From a virus: a DNA stretch of 22,741 nucleotides. This document shows, piece by piece, positions 1,476-14,512 of this stretch (its first letter is position 1; each line of letters starts with the position of its first letter). Location of the stretch: the IMG/VR virus record IMGVR_UViG_3300030329_005199, positions 1-22,741 of that record, one strand, 5' to 3'. The notes beneath the pieces are model-generated. The model was not told the DNA's origin and did not search any database. It saw nothing but the letters and a program-made list of their open reading frames with translations. A program made the translations under genes and the position numbers.

Positions 1476-1757
1476 TCATTCGTATTTTGCTCTCCATCTT
1501 CTCCACTCTTCAAGATTGATGACAACCCAAAGAGGACTCCGATTTGAACCGGTTAGCCCTCTAACGCTGACTTCACCGTTTTTTCCGATGCCTGGAGTTG
1601 TTGAGAGAATGTTTGAGATTGCATTTGCTGATGGGAAGCGAGTAGTTATCTCGGAGAGTTTGTCCTTGATTTGGTCAGCCGACAGACCGCCTGGATTCTG
1701 ACGCAGAATAGCCACGCATCTATCCCTGATAATCAGGTTTTGCTTACCGCGACTCAT
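1476..1757 (-). CDS. Predicted winged-helix protein
   Basis: The 93-residue product has the outline of a winged helix-turn-helix domain: a first helix at about 10-20 (RDRCVAILRQ), a Gly turn, a second helix at 27-33 (ADQIKDKL), a possible recognition helix at 43-52 (SANAISNIL) and a beta wing with basic and Gly residues at 57-79. A Trp/Arg-rich end (EEWRRWRAKYE) follows. This would suit a DNA-binding regulator or an adaptor within a complex, but no sequence-level family assignment is possible by eye. The start overlaps the upstream stop as ATGA. It is the only clear regulator-like fold seen in the leftward arrays, so it is one candidate for binding the repeated operator sites at 10.7-14.1 kb. 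Confidence 0.75.
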   Translation of the reverse strand: MSRGKQNLIIRDRCVAILRQNPGGLSADQIKDKLSEITTRFPSANAISNILSTTPGIGKNGEVSVRGLTGSNRSPLWVVINLEEWRRWRAKYE

Positions 1758-2478: not shown

Positions 2479-2916
2479 TTAATCACCGTCGCCTTCAATC
2501 CTGCTATCATGTTCCCCTATATGAATGTGCCGCAGAAGCATCGCTGCTCCCTTTTTCTCATCTCTAAATGAGTTTTGTGGATAATACAATTCTCTTTCGA
2601 GCATCGTCTTCATTCTGCTCACCAGCCTCAACATTGATTGCCTCCCAGAAACCAGGTCGCAACCCTCAAGATTGACGAGCCAGGTGTTACCTTCTAACAG
2701 TTCAACCAGGACCTCTTCAGTAGCATCATTGAAAAACTGAGTTGAAATGATTCCGTTTCTGATGAGGGCTTCAAGTGTGACGAGCGATTTTTCTGCCTGG
2801 TCGAACCAATCCTCACTTTTCCAATGGAATAGATTTCTGATTTCAGGCATACCCAATTCAGATAACCTGTGAAAAAGAATCTGTTTTTGGTATTCAGTCA
2901 CCTTCATCTCCGCCAT
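2479..2916 (-). CDS. Hypothetical helical protein, 145 aa
   Basis: The ATG at 2916 has GAGGTG seven bases upstream and overlaps the end of the zinc-ribbon gene by 13 bases. The product is predominantly helical (YQKQILFHRLSELG, EKSLVTLEALIRNG, EEVLVELLEG, LRLVSRMKTMLE) with few Gly or Pro residues. No catalytic motif is seen. Its last 20 codons are dual purpose: the bases encoding LLRHIHIGEH also form the CTGCGGCA plus TATA promoter of the next gene. Confidence 0.75.
   Translation of the reverse strand: MAEMKVTEYQKQILFHRLSELGMPEIRNLFHWKSEDWFDQAEKSLVTLEALIRNGIISTQFFNDATEEVLVELLEGNTWLVNLEGCDLVSGRQSMLRLVSRMKTMLERELYYPQNSFRDEKKGAAMLLRHIHIGEHDSRIEGDGD
2504..2545 (-). promoter_or_regulatory. Internal promoter inside the 3' end of a gene
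   Basis: Read leftward, TTCTGCGGCA (its TGCGGCA core at 2528-2534) is followed by ACATTCATATAGG (2516-2526). This is the same arrangement as the promoters at 6,752 and 10,415. A start about 26 bases below the TATA falls near 2494, giving a leader of about 18 bases to the ATG at 2476. The segment GATAGCAGGATTGAAG just downstream is shared with the 4,700 promoter. The element lies entirely within the coding sequence of the 145-residue protein. Confidence 0.6.
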
Positions 2917-3074
2917 CTCTTTTCACCTCTTTTAAGTGGCTCATTGAGTTTTGTTACGAACCCACAGCCTCCACATACCTTGAATCTATCTCTTAATCCT
3001 GAAGGGCATGGTGAAAACAGTTGTCTGACCTCTTCATTACAATGAGCGCATAACTCAATCCTGGGAAGAGTCAT
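2904..3074 (-). CDS. Zinc-ribbon-like small protein
   Basis: The 56-residue protein has Cys pairs at C9/C12 and C34/C37, plus C23, spaced as in a zinc ribbon, then a strongly basic end (KRGEKRWRR) suited to nucleic acid contact. Its ATG lies inside the last 20 bases of the ArdC gene and follows GAAGGTG. The coordinated metal and target are not deducible. Placement directly after ArdC implies co-translation with it. Confidence 0.75.
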   Translation of the reverse strand: MTLPRIELCAHCNEEVRQLFSPCPSGLRDRFKVCGGCGFVTKLNEPLKRGEKRWRR

Positions 3075-4104
3075 CCTTTTCACCTTCTTCCTCTTCTGGA
3101 GGGTCAATGAGGTCAATTGCCTTTTGAGCCTGAGTTCCGGCCACAATCAGCAGTTTGGTGTCGTTGCCCAGAACCTCTATCCAATTGTTGAAGTATGCTG
3201 CTGAACGATTTTGAGTTTCATACGCGAAGCCGAATCGAGCATTGAGCAGGGCCGCACCCATTTCAGCAATCAGTTCCTCGCGAGCATACTGTTTGCATCC
3301 GAATGCCCCTCCCATCTTACGAGATAGGCGTGAGCCGTGTCCTGTTGAATGGACGCACTCATGAGCGATAGTCGAAGTGTAGTATGCAGATGACTCAAAG
3401 AGTTCTCGCGGAGGCATAACCACTTTGTCTGATGAGATATTGTAGTATGCTCGGTCGCCTGCTTCTGAATAGTCAATGCCCTCACGGTCCATGTAACCTG
3501 TCAGACATTCCATGTAAGCAGCCTCGCGTTCATCTTCTTCAGGTCCCTCGCCAACATCTAACTCTTCTTGAGGTGGAAGGTTGGTCTGTTCTCGATTGAA
3601 TACCCAGAACCATTTGAGGATGGGGATGCGCTGTTTCTCCGGTTTGCCGTCAGCATCCAGGACAACCTCGCCGTTCTTCTTCTTGTCCACGTTAATGAGT
3701 TTCCAGTAAACAACGTAACAGTCAGCCTTCTCGCCTCGCTTGATACCGAAATACTGCAGAAGAGGTTTCCCGTCTTTGCCTCGCTTTATCTCACCGTCGT
3801 CGTCTGTCTGATAGAGTTTGTTCTTGCGAGCATAACGCTCACCAAAGGTTTTCCACTCACGGAATGAGCCCCATTGGTTGCTCTTGAATCCCTTCTCACC
3901 AGCCATCACAGGCAGGACGAATTGGTTGATGCCTCGATAAGGACGACCTGGTCTCATGACATTGTGATGAGAACCAAGCATCTTCCAGCCTCTTTCCCAG
4001 GGAGGCGTTCCTTCCTTGAGCATTTTGATAAATGAGTCTGTGATTTGTTGTTGCAGGGTTGCTCGGTCAATCTTGGGTTTTTTCTTCTGTTTCTGTTTAC
4101 TCAT
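3055..4104 (-). CDS. ardC: ArdC-like antirestriction protein with zincin protease domain
   Basis: Residues about 15-175 match the ArdC N-terminal single-stranded-DNA-binding domain: a helix, then a PPWERGW motif (34-40), RPYRGIN (54-60) and the WGSFREWK segment (78-85). After an acidic linker (178-193) comes a zincin-like metallopeptidase domain with H248-E-C-V-H252 and a downstream EELIAEMGAALL (276-287) that can supply the third Glu ligand. The C-terminus is acidic. The full length, 349 residues, is near that of plasmid and phage ArdC. In plasmids ArdC protects incoming single-stranded DNA from host restriction; in a virus the same role at genome entry is likely, though whether the protease cleaves a host protein is unknown. 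The start has GAGGTG seven bases upstream and overlaps the previous gene by eight bases. Confidence 0.93.
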   Translation of the reverse strand: MSKQKQKKKPKIDRATLQQQITDSFIKMLKEGTPPWERGWKMLGSHHNVMRPGRPYRGINQFVLPVMAGEKGFKSNQWGSFREWKTFGERYARKNKLYQTDDDGEIKRGKDGKPLLQYFGIKRGEKADCYVVYWKLINVDKKKNGEVVLDADGKPEKQRIPILKWFWVFNREQTNLPPQEELDVGEGPEEDEREAAYMECLTGYMDREGIDYSEAGDRAYYNISSDKVVMPPRELFESSAYYTSTIAHECVHSTGHGSRLSRKMGGAFGCKQYAREELIAEMGAALLNARFGFAYETQNRSAAYFNNWIEVLGNDTKLLIVAGTQAQKAIDLIDPPEEEEGEKDDSSQD

Positions 4105-6744: not shown

Positions 6745-6780
6745 TTAGTATATCAATGTGCCGCAGGGGCTTCTGTGCTG
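6745..6780 (-). promoter_or_regulatory. Promoter of the middle leftward array
   Basis: Read leftward, CAGAAGCCCCTGCGGCA (6775-6759) is followed by the TATA segment TTGATATACT (6757-6748) and then ATTATTGAGG. The 17-base box is identical to that at the 10,415 promoter. The stretch ACATTGATATACTAAA also occurs at the rightward promoter near 11,735, so the core is shared between strands while the upstream box differs. Confidence 0.65.
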
Positions 6781-6926
6781 CGTTTCTGCGCTGATAGTGC
6801 GCTCGCGGCGACGCTTCCCTCATTTTAGGAAACCTCCTGTCCCAACCCATTTTCGGGCTGTTTTTCTGCACAGTAAGAACAGGCAACAATCTCACACACC
6901 ACTTCAGCAGCAACAGGCACTATGAC

Positions 6927-10408: not shown

Positions 10409-10437
10409 CCTTATTATAGATGCCGCAGGGGCTTCTG
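10409..10437 (-). promoter_or_regulatory. Promoter of the right-hand leftward array
   Basis: CAGAAGCCCCTGCGGCA (10437-10421 leftward) is followed by TCTATAATAA (10420-10411). The 17-base box is identical to the one at 6,759-6,775. The TATA-to-ATG distance predicts a leaderless transcript for the 61-residue gene. Confidence 0.65.
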
Positions 10438-10670
10438 CGCAGATTCTGCCTGAGCAAACCAGCCTATCTCTTTCCCATATAGTGACAGGTCCTGCCCAAA
10501 AATAGAACAGCCACAGGCCGACACCTGGCTCGTTAGCCTGGAACAGGCACTTAAAACCAGGTCTGTTATTTTGGGGCCTGTTTATCTGGGACCCTCTTTT
10601 CCCGAATCAGTCTCCTATCTGCCTTTTTGTAAAAACAGGCCCTGGTTTCCCAGGTGAGATGGTAGGCTGG
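10438..10670. other. Divergent intergenic region with AACAGGC repeats
   Basis: This gap separates the leftward and rightward arrays. AACAGGC or its complement occurs at about 10,541, 10,577 and 10,633, with looser copies (GACAGGT, CACAGGC) at about 10,489 and 10,510. The first two exact copies face each other. Short T-runs are present. I see no supported gene. A replication origin or shared control region is possible from the divergent position and repeats only. Confidence 0.3.
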
Positions 10671-10735
10671 CTACGCTCGCTACGCTGGTTGCTCCGGCAA
10701 GACTATAAGCAAAGCCCGACCTGCTATAATCATGG
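10671..10735 (+). promoter_or_regulatory. Rightward promoter 1 with variant operator
   Basis: CTACG-CTCG-CTACG (10671-10684) lies 18 bases before the TATA segment ACTATAAGC (10702-10710). The intervening GCTGGTTGCTCCGGCA nearly matches promoter 3. The half-sites differ from the others (CTACG, not CTTAG/CTAAG), but position and spacing are the same. A TATA-based start falls near 10,731. Confidence 0.55.
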
Positions 10736-10761
10736 GCGGAAAACTCCTGAAGGCGGACGCG

Positions 10762-10866
10762 ATGTCTGTTCTCGTAGTTCAGGTGGCCCTGCGGAGGACT
10801 GTCTGTGGCGGGGCCAGCAGTCGTTCTCACTTCGACGCGATGAGGTCCCAGGAGGAATCTGCATGA
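10762..10866 (+). CDS. Possible small protein, 34 aa
   Basis: This short frame lies between promoter 1 and the Lys/Ala-rich protein gene. It overlaps the latter's start as ATGA, and its last codons contain that gene's AGGAGG. By alignment with the leader of the 13,140 gene, the ATG at 10762 is the matching start. An in-frame ATG at 10732 would be nearly leaderless and gives 44 residues. The product (VLVVQVALRRTV then Ser/Arg-rich) has no recognisable feature. Confidence 0.4.
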   Translation: MSVLVVQVALRRTVCGGASSRSHFDAMRSQEESA

Positions 10867-11234
10867 AGAACCAGACTATTCAGGAACAGGCTCGCAACAC
10901 TGTAAACCGCGTTGCTCAGACTGCTGAAGCACTCGTCAATGGACAATACCCTGACCTCAAGGTCTCGGAGAAGGCTGCCAAATCTCTTGGCCTCGCCCTC
11001 ACCCACCTGTCCGTCGTTGATGAGGAACTCTCTGGGAACCTGGAGGGTCGCTCGCTCACTGCACTCGCAAAGCGCACGGCTCGCTCCACTGACCTAAAGG
11101 CTCGTCTGCTGGAACTCGCAACACCTGCGAAAAAGCCCAGCAAGGCAGCAGCCAAGAAGGCACAGAAGAAGGGTGCTCAGAAGAAGGCTGACGCAAAGGC
11201 TGAGGTAACCACCACAGATGATGCAAATGCCTGA
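10863..11234 (+). CDS. Protein with histone H1-like Lys/Ala tail
   Basis: AGGAGG lies seven bases before the ATG at 10863, which decides the start; the same frame is open further upstream but through a promoter. Residues 1-86 are helical and form a probable small bundle (TIQEQARNTVNRVAQTAEAL, KAAKSLGLALTHLSVVDEEL). Residues 88-113 are a Lys/Ala/Pro tail of the kind found in histone H1-like and other nucleoid proteins. Binding to viral or host DNA is a fair inference. A strong hairpin-T terminator follows about 70 bases after the stop. Confidence 0.82.
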   Translation: MKNQTIQEQARNTVNRVAQTAEALVNGQYPDLKVSEKAAKSLGLALTHLSVVDEELSGNLEGRSLTALAKRTARSTDLKARLLELATPAKKPSKAAAKKAQKKGAQKKADAKAEVTTTDDANA

Positions 11235-11303
11235 TTTCCTGAGATGACAATTCGGCTGGGAGGCTCCTGCCTCCAACCAACTCCAGATAACACACAGGTC
11301 CCT

Positions 11304-11337
11304 CAGGGGCGGTTCGCTGCCCCTGGGGGGCTTTTTT
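11304..11337 (+). terminator. Strong hairpin plus T-run
   Basis: CAGGGGC (11304-11310) pairs perfectly with GCCCCTG (11319-11325) around an eight-base loop, and six T follow at 11332-11337. It follows the Lys/Ala-rich protein gene. The form is like a bacterial intrinsic terminator. Confidence 0.75.
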
Positions 11338-11648
11338 CAGAACTCCTGAGTTCTGAGTCAGCCTCGGCGTCCCACCGTCGGCTGGCTCAGGCTCTCCTCT
11401 TTTTAACTTTTTTTCAGGCTGAGCGATGACGCTCAGTCTGTCAGACACAGCAGATTTTCCTCGAGTGTGAGCAGGTAGCCTGGGGACCTGGTGAGCCAGG
11501 TTCTCTTATAGCAGCATCTCTTTTTCCTGGGAAAAGAGCATCTCATTTCTGCCCCAGCCTCTTACCTGCACAGTCTTCTGCACCACCTCCTCTTTGAGAC
11601 ATCTCCCGAGTCTGGAGCCTGGTCTGCTCACAGAATCTCCTTGAGCCC

Positions 11649-11760
11649 AGCTAAGCTCCCTAAGCTCAAGAGGCTGCGCGCGACTGCATATACCTGGTCA
11701 GCTTAGCTCCCTAAGCTCGCGCCTGGGTTACATTGATATACTAAAACCCCTATGACATAC
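11649..11760 (+). promoter_or_regulatory. Rightward promoter 2 with two operator-like sites
   Basis: AGCTTAG-CTCC-CTAAGCT (11700-11717) has perfect seven-base arms and its inner half-site ends 17 bases before TTGATATA (11733-11740). A second, looser site, CTAAGCTC-CCTAAGCTC, lies at 11651-11668 and is itself framed by CTTGAGC/GCTCAAG. The core ACATTGATATACTAAA is shared with the leftward promoter at 6,752. Confidence 0.65.
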
Positions 11761-11775
11761 TGAGGGTAAAATCTC

Positions 11776-12048
11776 ATGGAAAAAAATGTGAATGAACAGA
11801 CTCTGGAAGAGCTGCATGAAACCATGCTCACGGCTCTTGAAGACTCTGTAATGGAAATGGCTGAACTACAACAGCAGCAAGCGGGGACGAGCGAACACTA
11901 CTCGGGCGACCTCGCTGACCAGCTGTTTTGTGGTCGAGCGGTGATGGTATCCACTCGGATGCTCATTGCTGCTGCAAACGAAATGAACCGACGAGTGCTC
12001 ATGGCGAACTACCGGATGCTCCGTATCATGTGGCCTGGTGGTCGCTGA
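11776..12048 (+). CDS. Hypothetical helical protein, 90 aa
   Basis: GAGGGTAAAATCTC precedes the ATG, the leader pattern shared by the rightward cassettes. The protein is almost all helix (EQTLEELHETMLTALEDSVMEMAELQQQQ), probably a coiled coil in the first 40 residues, with a Met-rich second half (VSTRMLIAAANEMNRRVLMANYRMLRIMW). No motif recognised. The stop overlaps the next start (TGATG). Confidence 0.75.
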   Translation: MEKNVNEQTLEELHETMLTALEDSVMEMAELQQQQAGTSEHYSGDLADQLFCGRAVMVSTRMLIAAANEMNRRVLMANYRMLRIMWPGGR

Positions 12049-12278
12049 TGGCAGCAGCATATTACCGGTTTTGTGACGCTGATGGCTCGTGTGTTGTGGG
12101 GATGAAACTCCAGCGAACCACTCGACAAAAGTTCAGTCTGGTCGTGAAGGTGCCTGGTATTCCAGGTTCCACCACCTACCAGGGCTTCACTGGTTCTCCC
12201 GACTACGAAGCAGCCTTGCTGGCTGAATCATACGGTTGGAATCGAGCATCAGGTTCAGCTCAAGGGCGCGACCGCTGA
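12048..12278 (+). CDS. Hypothetical protein, possible AP2-like DNA-binding fold
   Basis: The 76-residue frame starts at TGATGG overlapping the 90-residue gene. Its beta-rich layout (YRFCDADGSCVVGMKLQ, KFSLVVKVPG, TYQGFTGSPDYEAALLAES) with a helix after an aromatic G-F-x-x-x-x-x-Y-x-A-A pattern recalls AP2-type domains of phage HNH proteins (three strands then a helix). This is a weak resemblance. It could be a small DNA-binding protein. Two small hairpins follow. Confidence 0.68.
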   Translation: MAAAYYRFCDADGSCVVGMKLQRTTRQKFSLVVKVPGIPGSTTYQGFTGSPDYEAALLAESYGWNRASGSAQGRDR

Positions 12279-12293
12279 TAACCATTACAGTCT

Positions 12294-12344
12294 CCCCCCC
12301 GTAAGGGGGCCGCTCAACCAGGCGGAGCTTTCTTGCTCTTTTCC
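12294..12344 (+). terminator. Double hairpin, likely terminator
   Basis: A C-run and G-run of at least five pairs (12295-12309) close a GTAA loop, then GAGC-TTTCTT-GCTC is followed by TTTT. It lies about 20 bases after the stop of the preceding gene and before promoter 3. Confidence 0.6.
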
Positions 12345-12395
12345 TGGCAAACCTTGTGGCTCCAGCCTGGATTTGAGCATTCGCTTCAGAATCAC

Positions 12396-12472
12396 ACTTA
12401 GCTCCCTAAGCTGGTTGCTGCGGCACCTTAATATAGATAGGCCCATCTCCGTATATTGAGGTGAAATAACTT
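12396..12472 (+). promoter_or_regulatory. Rightward promoter 3 with operator
   Basis: CTTAG-CTCC-CTAAG (12397-12410) lies 17 bases before TTAATATA (12428-12435), with GCTGGTTGCTGCGGCA between. TATTGAGGTGAAA at the predicted start combines initiator and ribosome site. The leader contains GTG-AAA-TAA, a two-codon frame. Confidence 0.65.
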
Positions 12473-12473
12473 C

Positions 12474-12761
12474 ATGGAGAAACAGGAAAAGCAGCAAGAC
12501 CAGGGACAGCATGACAGAATCTGGGACACAGAAGGCGAGTGGCACGGAGCAAACAGCAGTTTGTTCTTCGACGCAGGCTTCGGAGACCGAGATGTAGCAG
12601 GCAGATACGAGATATACGTGTGGATGGAGATATCAGCGAACGACTTTGACGAGTTCGGCTTCAGCTATTGCATTGACAGCTTTTGGAGCGACGGTATGTA
12701 TCAGGCTTTGAGCGACAGCGTGAATGGCTTCAACAGAATATATCTGGCGAGGGATGTTTGA
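12474..12761 (+). CDS. Hypothetical acidic aromatic protein, 95 aa
   Basis: The protein has a Gln/Glu-rich polar start (EKQEKQQDQGQHDR) then a compact acidic, aromatic domain with many Asp, Phe, Tyr and Trp (YEIYVWMEISANDFDEFGFSYC, SFWSDGMYQALSDS). The acidity suggests a protein-binding or DNA-mimic role, which is speculative. The start lies about ten bases after GAGGTGAAA. No family recognised. Confidence 0.75.
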   Translation: MEKQEKQQDQGQHDRIWDTEGEWHGANSSLFFDAGFGDRDVAGRYEIYVWMEISANDFDEFGFSYCIDSFWSDGMYQALSDSVNGFNRIYLARDV

Positions 12762-12762
12762 G

Positions 12763-12993
12763 ATGTGCGAGAAGTGCATTGAACCAGAAGACGTTGAGCC
12801 TACGGAGGCGAATTGCGTTCGAGCGGTCATTTTTCTTGAGGAACGCCTGGATGAGTTTACAACTGATAAGAGGGTTGCAGTCGAGACACTAATCAACGAG
12901 TATTGTCGAGTTCACAATATGTGCAGACCTTCAGCGTATGACCCAATCGGTATGTGCTCATGCCTGATGTGTGAGTTCGGGCCGAGCAGTTGA
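12763..12993 (+). CDS. Cys-rich protein, 76 aa
   Basis: The ATG at 12763 has GAGG about ten bases upstream; an ATG at 12754 is too close to it. Cys residues at 2, 5, 18, 48, 54, 65, 67 and 70 bracket a central charged helix (CVRAVIFLEERLDEFTTDKRVAVETLINEYC). N- and C-terminal Cys pairs may join into a zinc site that clamps the helix ends. Follows the acidic protein gene by one base, so the two share a transcript. Function unknown. Confidence 0.72.
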   Translation: MCEKCIEPEDVEPTEANCVRAVIFLEERLDEFTTDKRVAVETLINEYCRVHNMCRPSAYDPIGMCSCLMCEFGPSS

Positions 12994-13005
12994 GAATTCC
13001 TCTTT

Positions 13006-13019
13006 CCCCCAGATGGGGG
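13006..13019 (+). terminator. Short G/C hairpin after the Cys-rich gene
   Basis: CCCCC-AGAT-GGGGG forms a five-pair hairpin with a four-base loop, 12 bases after the stop. The preceding TCTTT and absence of a following T-run leave its direction uncertain. Confidence 0.45.
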
Positions 13020-13051
13020 CATTCAGCCTCGAAGCCCTGGTCAAATATCAC

Positions 13052-13135
13052 GCTTAGCTGCCTAAGCTCATTGCTGCGTTAAGACTATAAGCAAATACGT
13101 CCTGGCTATTATTGGGGTGAAAAACTGCTAAAACT
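13052..13135 (+). promoter_or_regulatory. Rightward promoter 4 with operator
   Basis: GCTTAG-CTGC-CTAAGC (13052-13067) has perfect six-base arms, 18 bases before CTATAAGC (13085-13092). TTGCTGCGTTA lies between. The start region TATTATTGGGGTGAAAA is followed by a minimal frame GTG-AAA-AAC-TGC-TAA before the gene's ATG. Confidence 0.65.
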
Positions 13136-13139
13136 CGTA

Positions 13140-13544
13140 ATGTCTGACAAGGACAAATCTGCACTCGCTGACCTGGCACGGTCTGAAGGCTGGAAGAACT
13201 GCATGAACCATCTGGGGGAACCTGATTTCCCTGCATTCGATATACACTGGGACCACTTCCCTGGTGTTAATGCGCCTCTTTGGCCTCGACCTGGAAGTCT
13301 CCTGGTTATGCGAAACTGGACGCCTGAATCTGAACGTGCGCGAAAACACTTCGCGCCTGGTCACGGCTCTTTCTGGATAGCGACTCAATACTTCGCTGAA
13401 CTGAATGACCAAGAAATGCACCAGATTTTCCTGCCGCTGAATGGCGCTGATGACAATTTCAATTGTCCTGCCTTCGCCACCTGGGCTGACCTGGATTCTC
13501 TTCGTCTGACGCCTGTCTTCTTTTGGTCTGCACCGGCTCCTTAG
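13140..13544 (+). CDS. Hypothetical protein, 134 aa
   Basis: The ATG at 13140 is about 20 bases from GGGGTGA, an unusually long spacing for this group. The protein has an N-terminal helix, then an aromatic Pro-rich core (FPAFDIHWDHFPGVNAPLWPRPGS, HGSFWIATQYFAEL) and a Trp/Pro end (FFWSAPAP). Scattered His and Asp residues could be catalytic, but no pattern is recognisable. The stop lies within a perfect hairpin, TAGGCT-CTTT-AGCCTA. Confidence 0.75.
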   Translation: MSDKDKSALADLARSEGWKNCMNHLGEPDFPAFDIHWDHFPGVNAPLWPRPGSLLVMRNWTPESERARKHFAPGHGSFWIATQYFAELNDQEMHQIFLPLNGADDNFNCPAFATWADLDSLRLTPVFFWSAPAP

Positions 13545-13574
13545 GCTCTTTAGCCTATCTCCCCTGGGTTGGGG
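13542..13574 (+). terminator. Two hairpins at the gene end
   Basis: TAGGCT (starting with the stop codon) pairs with AGCCTA across CTTT, then CCCC-TGGGTT-GGGG follows. Neither has a strong T-run. They mark the end of the promoter 4 cassette. Confidence 0.5.
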
Positions 13575-13617
13575 ATTATCCAGCCTGGGGGCTGTCGCCT
13601 TTTGTGAGCCTGACGCA

Positions 13618-13680
13618 CTTAGGCCCCTAAGCTGATGCCTGGGTTAAGACTATAAGCAAATACCCCTTCCTTAGTATTGG
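13618..13680 (+). promoter_or_regulatory. Rightward promoter 5 with operator
   Basis: CTTAG-GCCC-CTAAG (13618-13631) lies 18 bases before CTATAAGC (13650-13657), separated by CTGATGCCTGGGTTAAGA. The TATA and flank TTAAGACTATAAGCAAATAC are identical to promoter 4. TATTGGAGGTAAA marks the start and ribosome site. Confidence 0.65.
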
Positions 13681-13691
13681 AGGTAAATCTC

Positions 13692-13949
13692 GTGAAATTG
13701 AACACACAAGTTCTGGAGACTGTCTGCAAGGTGATAAACACTGCTGCTGCTGAGAATGGCGACCATGTGCCAATCGCTGGTCTGGGGGAAACTGAATCTC
13801 ACCCCGACACCTACAACGCGCAGTATGTTCTGTCTTGCATTGACCAGGTTATCCTGAATGAGTCTGCAAAGAAGCCCTGGCAACGCACTTTTGTCTGGTC
13901 TGAACTTTGCTTGTCTCGTTCGGCCTGGGTCTCATACGCAGACGTCTGA
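13692..13949 (+). CDS. Hypothetical protein, 85 aa, GTG start
   Basis: GGAGGT lies seven bases before the GTG at 13692; the frame is open slightly further up but through the ribosome site. The product is helical (TQVLETVCKVINTAAAENG, YVLSCIDQVILNES) with a Pro/Gly loop between, and ends in SELCLSRSAWVSYADV. No family recognised. GTCCC-CATTC-GGGAC follows shortly after the stop. Confidence 0.72.
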   Translation: MKLNTQVLETVCKVINTAAAENGDHVPIAGLGETESHPDTYNAQYVLSCIDQVILNESAKKPWQRTFVWSELCLSRSAWVSYADV

Positions 13950-13958
13950 TTTCTGCGT

Positions 13959-13973
13959 CCCCATTCGGGACCA
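13959..13973 (+). terminator. Small hairpin after the GTG gene
   Basis: GTCCC and GGGAC pair around CATTC about nine bases after the stop. TTTCCC and TTTTCC runs follow some 20 bases later. It is weak compared with the element at 11,304. Confidence 0.4.
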
Positions 13974-14048
13974 TCTTCTGGGGGAGACTCTTTCCCATTT
14001 TCCTGGCTCCAGCCTCGATTCTCCTGGCTGAATGGATGAATAAGCGGA

Positions 14049-14120
14049 CTAAGCTGCCTAAGCTGATTTCTGCGGCATCTATAAATACCCCCACCCCCTT
14101 CCTTAAATCGAGGTAAAACT
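14049..14120 (+). promoter_or_regulatory. Rightward promoter 6 with variant operator
   Basis: CTAAG-CTGC-CTAAG (14049-14062) has direct, not inverted, half-sites, as in the distal site at 11,651. It ends 16-17 bases before CTATAAATA (14079-14087), with TTTCTGCGGCAT between. TCGAGGTAAAACTC precedes the gene's ATG. Confidence 0.6.
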
Positions 14121-14121
14121 C

Positions 14122-14376
14122 ATGATGGAAAAAATAGAAGCCGAGGCTCGACTACGAGCCATGATGAATGACCAGCCTGGTGGCGGTTTCAGCAACAACC
14201 TTCGCGCTCTCCTGAGCGCAGGTGCTGCTGCTTACTTACACGCAGACTTGGGCAACCGAGCAGCATTGTGCGCGTTGTCCTTCGGAGAACTGATGAACCT
14301 ATGGTCAGAGCACGAAGATTGCACGACACCAGGGATTTTGAGCAAAGCGGGGTATGAGGATGAACGGACCAGTTAA
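14122..14376 (+). CDS. Hypothetical protein, 84 aa
   Basis: The ATG follows GAGGTAAAACTC; the next codon is also ATG. The protein is Ala/Leu-rich and helical (KIEAEARLRAMMNDQ, NNLRALLSAGAAAYLHADLGNRAALCALSFGELMNLW), with a polar acidic end. It may be a small helical bundle. No family recognised. Its last 17 bases overlap the next gene. Confidence 0.73.
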   Translation: MMEKIEAEARLRAMMNDQPGGGFSNNLRALLSAGAAAYLHADLGNRAALCALSFGELMNLWSEHEDCTTPGILSKAGYEDERTS

Positions 14377-14512
14377 GTGTATTATCTGTTTTAAGCCGTT
14401 GCCTAACAGCAGCAAAAAGAGTCCCAGTTCGTTTTGTTCAGGTAAGTGTTGCACAGCATACTACTCAATGTCAGTATCTGAGCGACCAGCCATGAATCAG
14501 GCACGACAGTGA
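14360..14512 (+). CDS. Zinc-finger miniprotein, 50 aa
   Basis: C7-x2-C10, a basic Ser-rich loop, then FCSGKCC (C26, C30, C31) give a treble-clef or MYM-like zinc-finger outline: C-x2-C-x15-C-x3-C. GGGG lies seven bases upstream of the ATG. It is the second gene of the promoter 6 cassette. Proteins of this outline are often found in viral accessory regions without known function. Confidence 0.72.
   Translation: MNGPVKCIICFKPLPNSSKKSPSSFCSGKCCTAYYSMSVSERPAMNQARQ

Follow-up and report, generated by a model that had tools for sequence, protein, structure and literature searches.

Six repeated promoter units in the window

The window (the whole stretch of DNA analysed, 22,741 nucleotides) comprises bases 1-22741 of a 29,183-base IMG/VR virus record (IMGVR_UViG_3300030329_005199), which is possibly a fragment. 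It carries six 70-nt promoter units (P1~P6), which align without gaps from an upstream site via the TATA box to the ribosome-binding site (RBS) and precede separate cassettes of small rightward genes. A seventh copy of the site stands 51 bp upstream of the P2 site and has no unit of its own.

10671..10740, plus strand: unit P1, with a diverged site CTACGCT-CG-CTACGCT, the middle box and TATA at 10704; start codon 28 nt past TATA
11651..11666, plus strand: extra (seventh) upstream site, CTAAGCT-CC-CTAAGCT
11702..11771, plus strand: unit P2, TATA at 11737
12397..12466, plus strand: unit P3, TATA at 12432
13053..13122, plus strand: unit P4, TATA at 13086
13618..13687, plus strand: unit P5, TATA at 13651
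14049..14118, plus strand: unit P6, TATA at 14080

All six units share the plus strand and keep a fixed register to TATA and RBS. The six promoters with their paired upstream sites lie where a sequence-only reading of this DNA had placed them; the sites, however, number seven rather than six. A repeat finder blind to promoters clustered the same six 70-nt copies into one family (D1), 61-76% identical to the reference copy. With up to three mismatches, CTTAGCTNCCTAAGCT has 7 matches in the window compared to 0.38 expected from shuffles, a count that includes an overlapping reverse match at 11700 and excludes the diverged P1 site. With up to two mismatches, the whole record has six forward and no reverse matches. 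In a leave-one-out test, a matrix built from five units was scanned for the sixth over both strands of the record, 58,065 positions in all, and every unit ranked first (36 to 73 bits), with the best non-unit position below -21. After removal of the site (bases 17-70 only), each unit still ranked first, and the runner-up in most of these tests was the leftward promoter at 6771. The sequence-only reading had proposed scanning a matrix of the six sites over the rest of the genome: each unit tops the ranking, and neither pattern nor matrix scans yielded a further copy in the 29-kb, possibly incomplete record.

Mean pairwise identity is highest in the site (0.83), followed by the middle box and the surroundings of TATA (0.60 each), the initiator/RBS region (0.56) and the spacer (0.44). 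Over the whole unit it amounts to 0.61, and in the 50 bases before and the 50 bases after it is 0.28 each, against 0.25 for random sequence. As the flanks are near background, the conserved block stops sharply at the promoter. The earlier description of a repeated promoter unit with selected geometry before unrelated small genes thus stands, with the conservation bounded to 70 nt.

Architecture of the unit and its upstream site

Counted from the first base of the site, each unit consists of the site (1-16), a middle/BRE box (~19-28), a TATA box with its first T at 32-36 and an initiator-like AT.G block (~59-62), followed in most units by a GAGG-type RBS. The site had been thought to end 16-18 bases before TATA at a constant spacing; the measured gaps are 15, 17, 17, 17, 19 and 19 bases, and the register that is kept constant is that from the site to the RBS. 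Archaeal transcription usually starts ~27 bp downstream of the first T of TATA, and the site therefore spans roughly -61 to -46 of the start expected on this rule, a span that would place it upstream of the region contacted by TFB and TBP. P1 and a leftward promoter at 10428 lie only 28-29 nt before an ATG and thus appear leaderless. Sigma-70 promoters were also considered and discarded, with 2 found against 3.2 expected.

The sequence-only reading took the site for a palindrome, CTTAG-N4-CTAAG, contacted by a dimer. Over the seven sites (those of the six units and that at 11651), two direct heptamers with a 9-bp period, CTWAGCT-NN-CTAAGCT, match better, agreeing at 43 of 49 positions compared to 36 of 49 for a 7-bp inverted repeat; the 5-bp palindrome of the CTTAG-N4-CTAAG type is perfect in four of the seven. 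The P1 site, with CTACGCT twice, fits the direct model only (7/7 direct, 3/7 inverted). The CT after the left pentamer is retained in 6/7 sites, though it would be plain spacer in a palindrome. This comparison favours, short of proof, direct repeats over a palindrome.

A core promoter shared with leftward operons

The middle box that had been noticed between site and TATA is present, but it is not specific to the six promoters, as three leftward promoters have it too. The record contains this box, CTGCGGCA, six times; in five cases TATA follows 2-6 nt later, namely at P3, P6 and the leftward promoters at 10428, 6766 and 2535. The arrangement CTGCGGCA-N2-6-TATA occurs five times in the window and not once in 100 shuffles.

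10415..10428, minus strand: leftward core promoter CTGCGGCA-TC-TATA, no site; gene start 10389
6749..6766, minus strand: leftward core promoter CTGCGGCA-N6-TATA, no site; gene start 6716
2518..2535, minus strand: leftward core promoter CTGCGGCA-N6-TATA, no site; gene start 2476

The three leftward promoters head operons and lack the CTWAGCT site. The middle box is therefore part of a shared core to which the site is an add-on, and at least two promoter classes can be told apart: the core alone (leftward) and the core plus site (rightward). Two of the leftward promoters (10428-10450 and 6766-6790, minus strand) also share CAGAAGCCC immediately before CTGCGGCA, with GCAGAA further upstream, perhaps a separate upstream element of their own.

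Copying may have generated the units: P4 and P5 have 53 of 70 bases in common, P3 and P6 have 49, and the TATA region is identical among P1, P4 and P5. One explanation would therefore be that the unit is mainly a copied module, a promoter duplicated along with its genes or providing the homology by which cassettes are exchanged, without any regulator devoted to it. We consider this improbable, as the site, although the best-conserved block, is missing from leftward promoters with the same core, the flanks and genes are unrelated, and the extra site at P2 stands without a unit. The conservation pattern points to function beyond shared ancestry.

Proposed regulation of the small rightward genes

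We propose that the six units form a single class of archaeal-type promoters. A virus-specific regulator would sit on the two adjacent heptamers, directly before the stretch that TFB and TBP contact, and would switch the small rightward genes jointly. The leftward operons share this core (CTGCGGCA plus TATA) but have no site and would hence fall outside this regulon. The mode would most likely be activation, by recruiting TFB or TBP. Archaeal activators typically bind upstream of the TFB recognition element (BRE) and recruit TBP or TFB, at times via several short sites, as for EarA and Ptr2, whereas binding over the core promoter or below it is the rule for archaeal repressors (PMC5512572, PMC5937170). 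In agreement with the sequence-only reading, the site lies directly upstream of BRE/TATA; archaeal activators bind at this position. On balance, we find it somewhat more probable than not that the site activates from upstream, read by a virus-specific regulator that co-switches the small rightward genes; the sign of regulation is read from the position of the site only. More broadly, we infer that the units are active promoters, that a protein binds at the site and activates, and that the host is probably a marine archaeon.

The same layout could be read in the opposite sense: an Aca-like or F55-like repressor encoded by the virus would use the site as its operator and turn a strong early promoter off after the first phase of infection, or hold it off in a carrier state. 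Most archaeal virus regulators examined to date are repressors. At several early promoters, F55 of SSV1 acts on direct repeats in tandem, some promoters having two sites (PMC5569661), which the two tandem sites at P2 would suit, and Aca8 is presumed to repress early anti-defence promoters at a later stage (PMC11065993). However, the site ends 15-19 bp before TATA and does not touch the BRE, TATA box or start, the usual targets of repressors (PMC5512572). A repressor is thus conceivable, but we hold it to be rather unlikely.

Several observations weigh against an activating site. The distance from site to TATA differs by up to 4 bases among the units; the comparable upstream alpha block of the tailed archaeal virus HF2 is dispensable for promoter activity in a host without viral genes (PMC8707807); a near TerL relative, G001, has no comparable repeated family in an ungapped-repeat search; and the regulator of the site is represented by a weak candidate only.

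Similarity to known promoter repeats

In anatomy, the units are closest to the class I intergenic repeats of HF2, about seven units of 56-58 bp with alpha, BRE, TATA and gamma blocks that were tested as promoters (PMC8707807). Both are repeated intergenic units with an upstream block, a BRE, a TATA box and an initiator block, their sequence being confined to the units, and in the HF2 units transcription starts at a set distance past TATA (PMC8707807). They differ in sequence and in position, the alpha block of HF2 IR4, CTAAAGACTTAA, lying nearer TATA. Moreover, the early-middle genes driven by the HF2 units are spread over 49 kb, while all six units here fit into 3.5 kb of a single strand; the HF2 promoters were tested, whereas the present units are known from sequence only.

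In gene content, the closest are the early promoters of SIRV2-type Sulfolobales viruses, where one virus-specific sequence surrounding the core promoter likewise precedes many small, mostly single, orphan genes (PMC11065993). The upstream parts of these units vary between viruses while the core stays, and several of the genes are anti-defence (PMC11065993). They have a strong core, some with inverted repeats over the BRE that are read as repressor sites; here, by contrast, direct heptamers lie upstream of the BRE. The window shares with both systems several TATA-containing intergenic units before separate genes, with the sequence confined to the units.

EarA and Ptr2 also use short repeated sites immediately upstream of the BRE, known there to recruit TFB or TBP, and the site of the activator TFB-RF1 is immediately upstream of the BRE as well (PMC5512572, PMC5937170). 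These, however, are host regulators, known proteins with other motifs, and no homologue was identified here. The F55 operators of SSV1 resemble the present sites in that several promoters carry tandem direct repeats, two sites at some, but they overlap the BRE and the transcript start, while the site here, with its tandem direct repeats (43/49), is clear of the core promoter (PMC5569661).

The layout is thus already known from archaeal viruses; the present case stands out by its upstream site of two heptamers and by the virus group, for which no report of such units was found. Little work exists on how viruses of uncultured marine archaea control their genes, and a literature text search, of partial coverage, found no report on promoter motifs of Poseidoniales viruses. 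A repeated unit whose upstream site is so distinct, together with differing units in relatives, offers a sequence-based route to promoter classes. Such units could predict early accessory genes, as in Sulfolobales viruses, and guide the search for matching regulators.

Genes of the cassettes

Behind the six units lie ten small open reading frames (ORFs) of 44-134 amino acids (aa).

10732..10866, plus strand: 44-aa ORF directly behind P1, seemingly leaderless; its stop overlaps the start of the 123-aa gene
10863..11234, plus strand: small gene of cassette 1, 123 aa, helical with a basic tail, no family
11776..12278, plus strand: cassette 2, two small genes (11776-12048 and 12048-12278), no family
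12474..12993, plus strand: cassette 3, two small genes (12474-12761; the second ends at 12993, start uncertain), no family
13140..13544, plus strand: cassette 4, one gene, 134 aa, no family, no IMG/VR relative
13692..13949, plus strand: cassette 5, one small gene with a GTG start, no family above the cut-off
14122..14512, plus strand: cassette 6, two small genes (14122-14376 and 14354-14512), PHROG match weak at best

None of the cassette proteins scanned reaches the Pfam cut-off or matches PADLOC, a result limited by the fact that anti-defence proteins seldom have relatives. The best PHROG match, phrog_2308 to the product of 14354-14512, is weak (E 0.0022). IMG/VR searches with two products, that of P4 and the protein of the P1 unit, found no relatives, and a fold search with the 10863-11234 product gave no convincing match. 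We infer that these are putative early accessory or anti-defence genes.

A hairpin had been described after most cassettes. Compared to shuffles, it is clear for cassette 1 (z -5.0) and weak for cassette 4 (z -2.1), while the remaining four lie within the shuffles; the idea of terminator hairpins behind every cassette thus does not hold up.

Outside the cassettes, the leftward region encodes an ArdC-like protein (3055-4104, minus strand) with ArdcN and zincin-like metallopeptidase domains (Pfam E 3.8e-21 and 1.8e-34), likely an antirestriction protein, which was not found in 21 relatives.

The virus and its relatives

TerL of the virus is 61-67% identical to that of 18 IMG/VR loci (65% to G001), and the portal protein 53-67% identical to that of 17 IMG/VR loci; among annotated phages, TerL matches are weak and include the haloviruses phiH and PhiCh1. 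G001 (64.8 kb) encodes PolB, an AAA clamp-loader-like ATPase, cpn60 and an ERCC4 nuclease; the window's own record shows neither PolB nor the archaeal-type replication genes of G001. Magroviruses, viruses of Poseidoniales, are reported to carry an almost complete complement of replication proteins, an ERCC4-type nuclease among them, plus portal and terminase (PMC10160649). TerL and portal group the virus with magrovirus-like contigs, and our best guess is a magrovirus-like virus of a marine archaeon. Searches of genome contigs with the major capsid protein-like protein or a TerL profile found no host link, and searches with four window proteins found no closer relatives.

The strict site pattern is found in none of the viral contigs, and a looser one gave 34 single matches there, none scoring with the unit matrix. 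Likewise, no CTWAGCT pairs were found in 21 relatives and no similar DNA in phage or plasmid records. Repeated units in the relatives were sought by an ungapped-repeat search followed by motif scans. G013 has six copies of ACTCACGATAAAAAA, with TATA or TTAAATA within 3 nt after it, and G015 has five copies, four of them ahead of genes that evidently correspond to those of G013. In G017, AATCACGAATTCGTAAGGTT leads into boxes resembling TAAATA (six matches, up to 4 mismatches), and G014 and G010 contain weaker repeated sets. Virus-specific repeated promoter units, of other sequence in G013, G015 and G017, therefore recur in part of the group. Word counts anchored on TATA and RBS were too noisy in the relatives; in the window they recovered TAAGCT and TGCGGC.

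Other short repeats sharing (A/T)TGTAAC (CTTTTGTAACC, TTATGTAAC and AAATTGTAACC) are densely clustered in gene-poor stretches of G013, G015, G014, G016 and G017 (loci L048-L049, L056, L053, L033, L037 and L057), with 31-77 copies per set of pieces compared to 1 in G001; they are possibly origin or partition repeats. By analogy with such dense arrays, and with two sites at P2, the sites of the window could be replication, packaging or partition repeats that happen to fall in intergenic gaps. We regard this as very improbable, since six of the seven sites, unlike the arrays, are fixed in orientation and in register to TATA/RBS over 70 nt.

A different repeat, AATCCAAATCCAAAT, recurs in intergenic gaps of the loci L017, L019, L022 and L023, in several cases directly before a hairpin and then a T run.

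Candidate regulators

The regulator may be encoded in the missing part of the genome. Within the window, one small protein provides a weak candidate.

1476..1757, minus strand: small winged-helix-like protein, weak candidate regulator from fold and profile comparison

Confidence in its predicted winged-helix fold is low (mean pLDDT 46), no IMG/VR relative was found, and its assignment to the site is a lead only. A speculative and rather doubtful extension would be a general scheme of private addresses among the marine archaeal tailed viruses of this group, in which each lineage has its own upstream activating site and its own small regulator, the site changing fast while the core stays. The window, G013/G015 and G017 would be its cases, and the candidate readers would be one small winged-helix-like protein family, comprising the 1476-1757 protein and the proteins of alignment A3. 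The A3 proteins are present in G013, G015, G016 and G014, and in G013 and G015 their gene is the first behind a repeated unit. BLASTP with the 1476-1757 protein returned nothing; a single hhalign comparison aligned it with A3 over 77 columns with a probability of 68% and an E of 4.8e-5.

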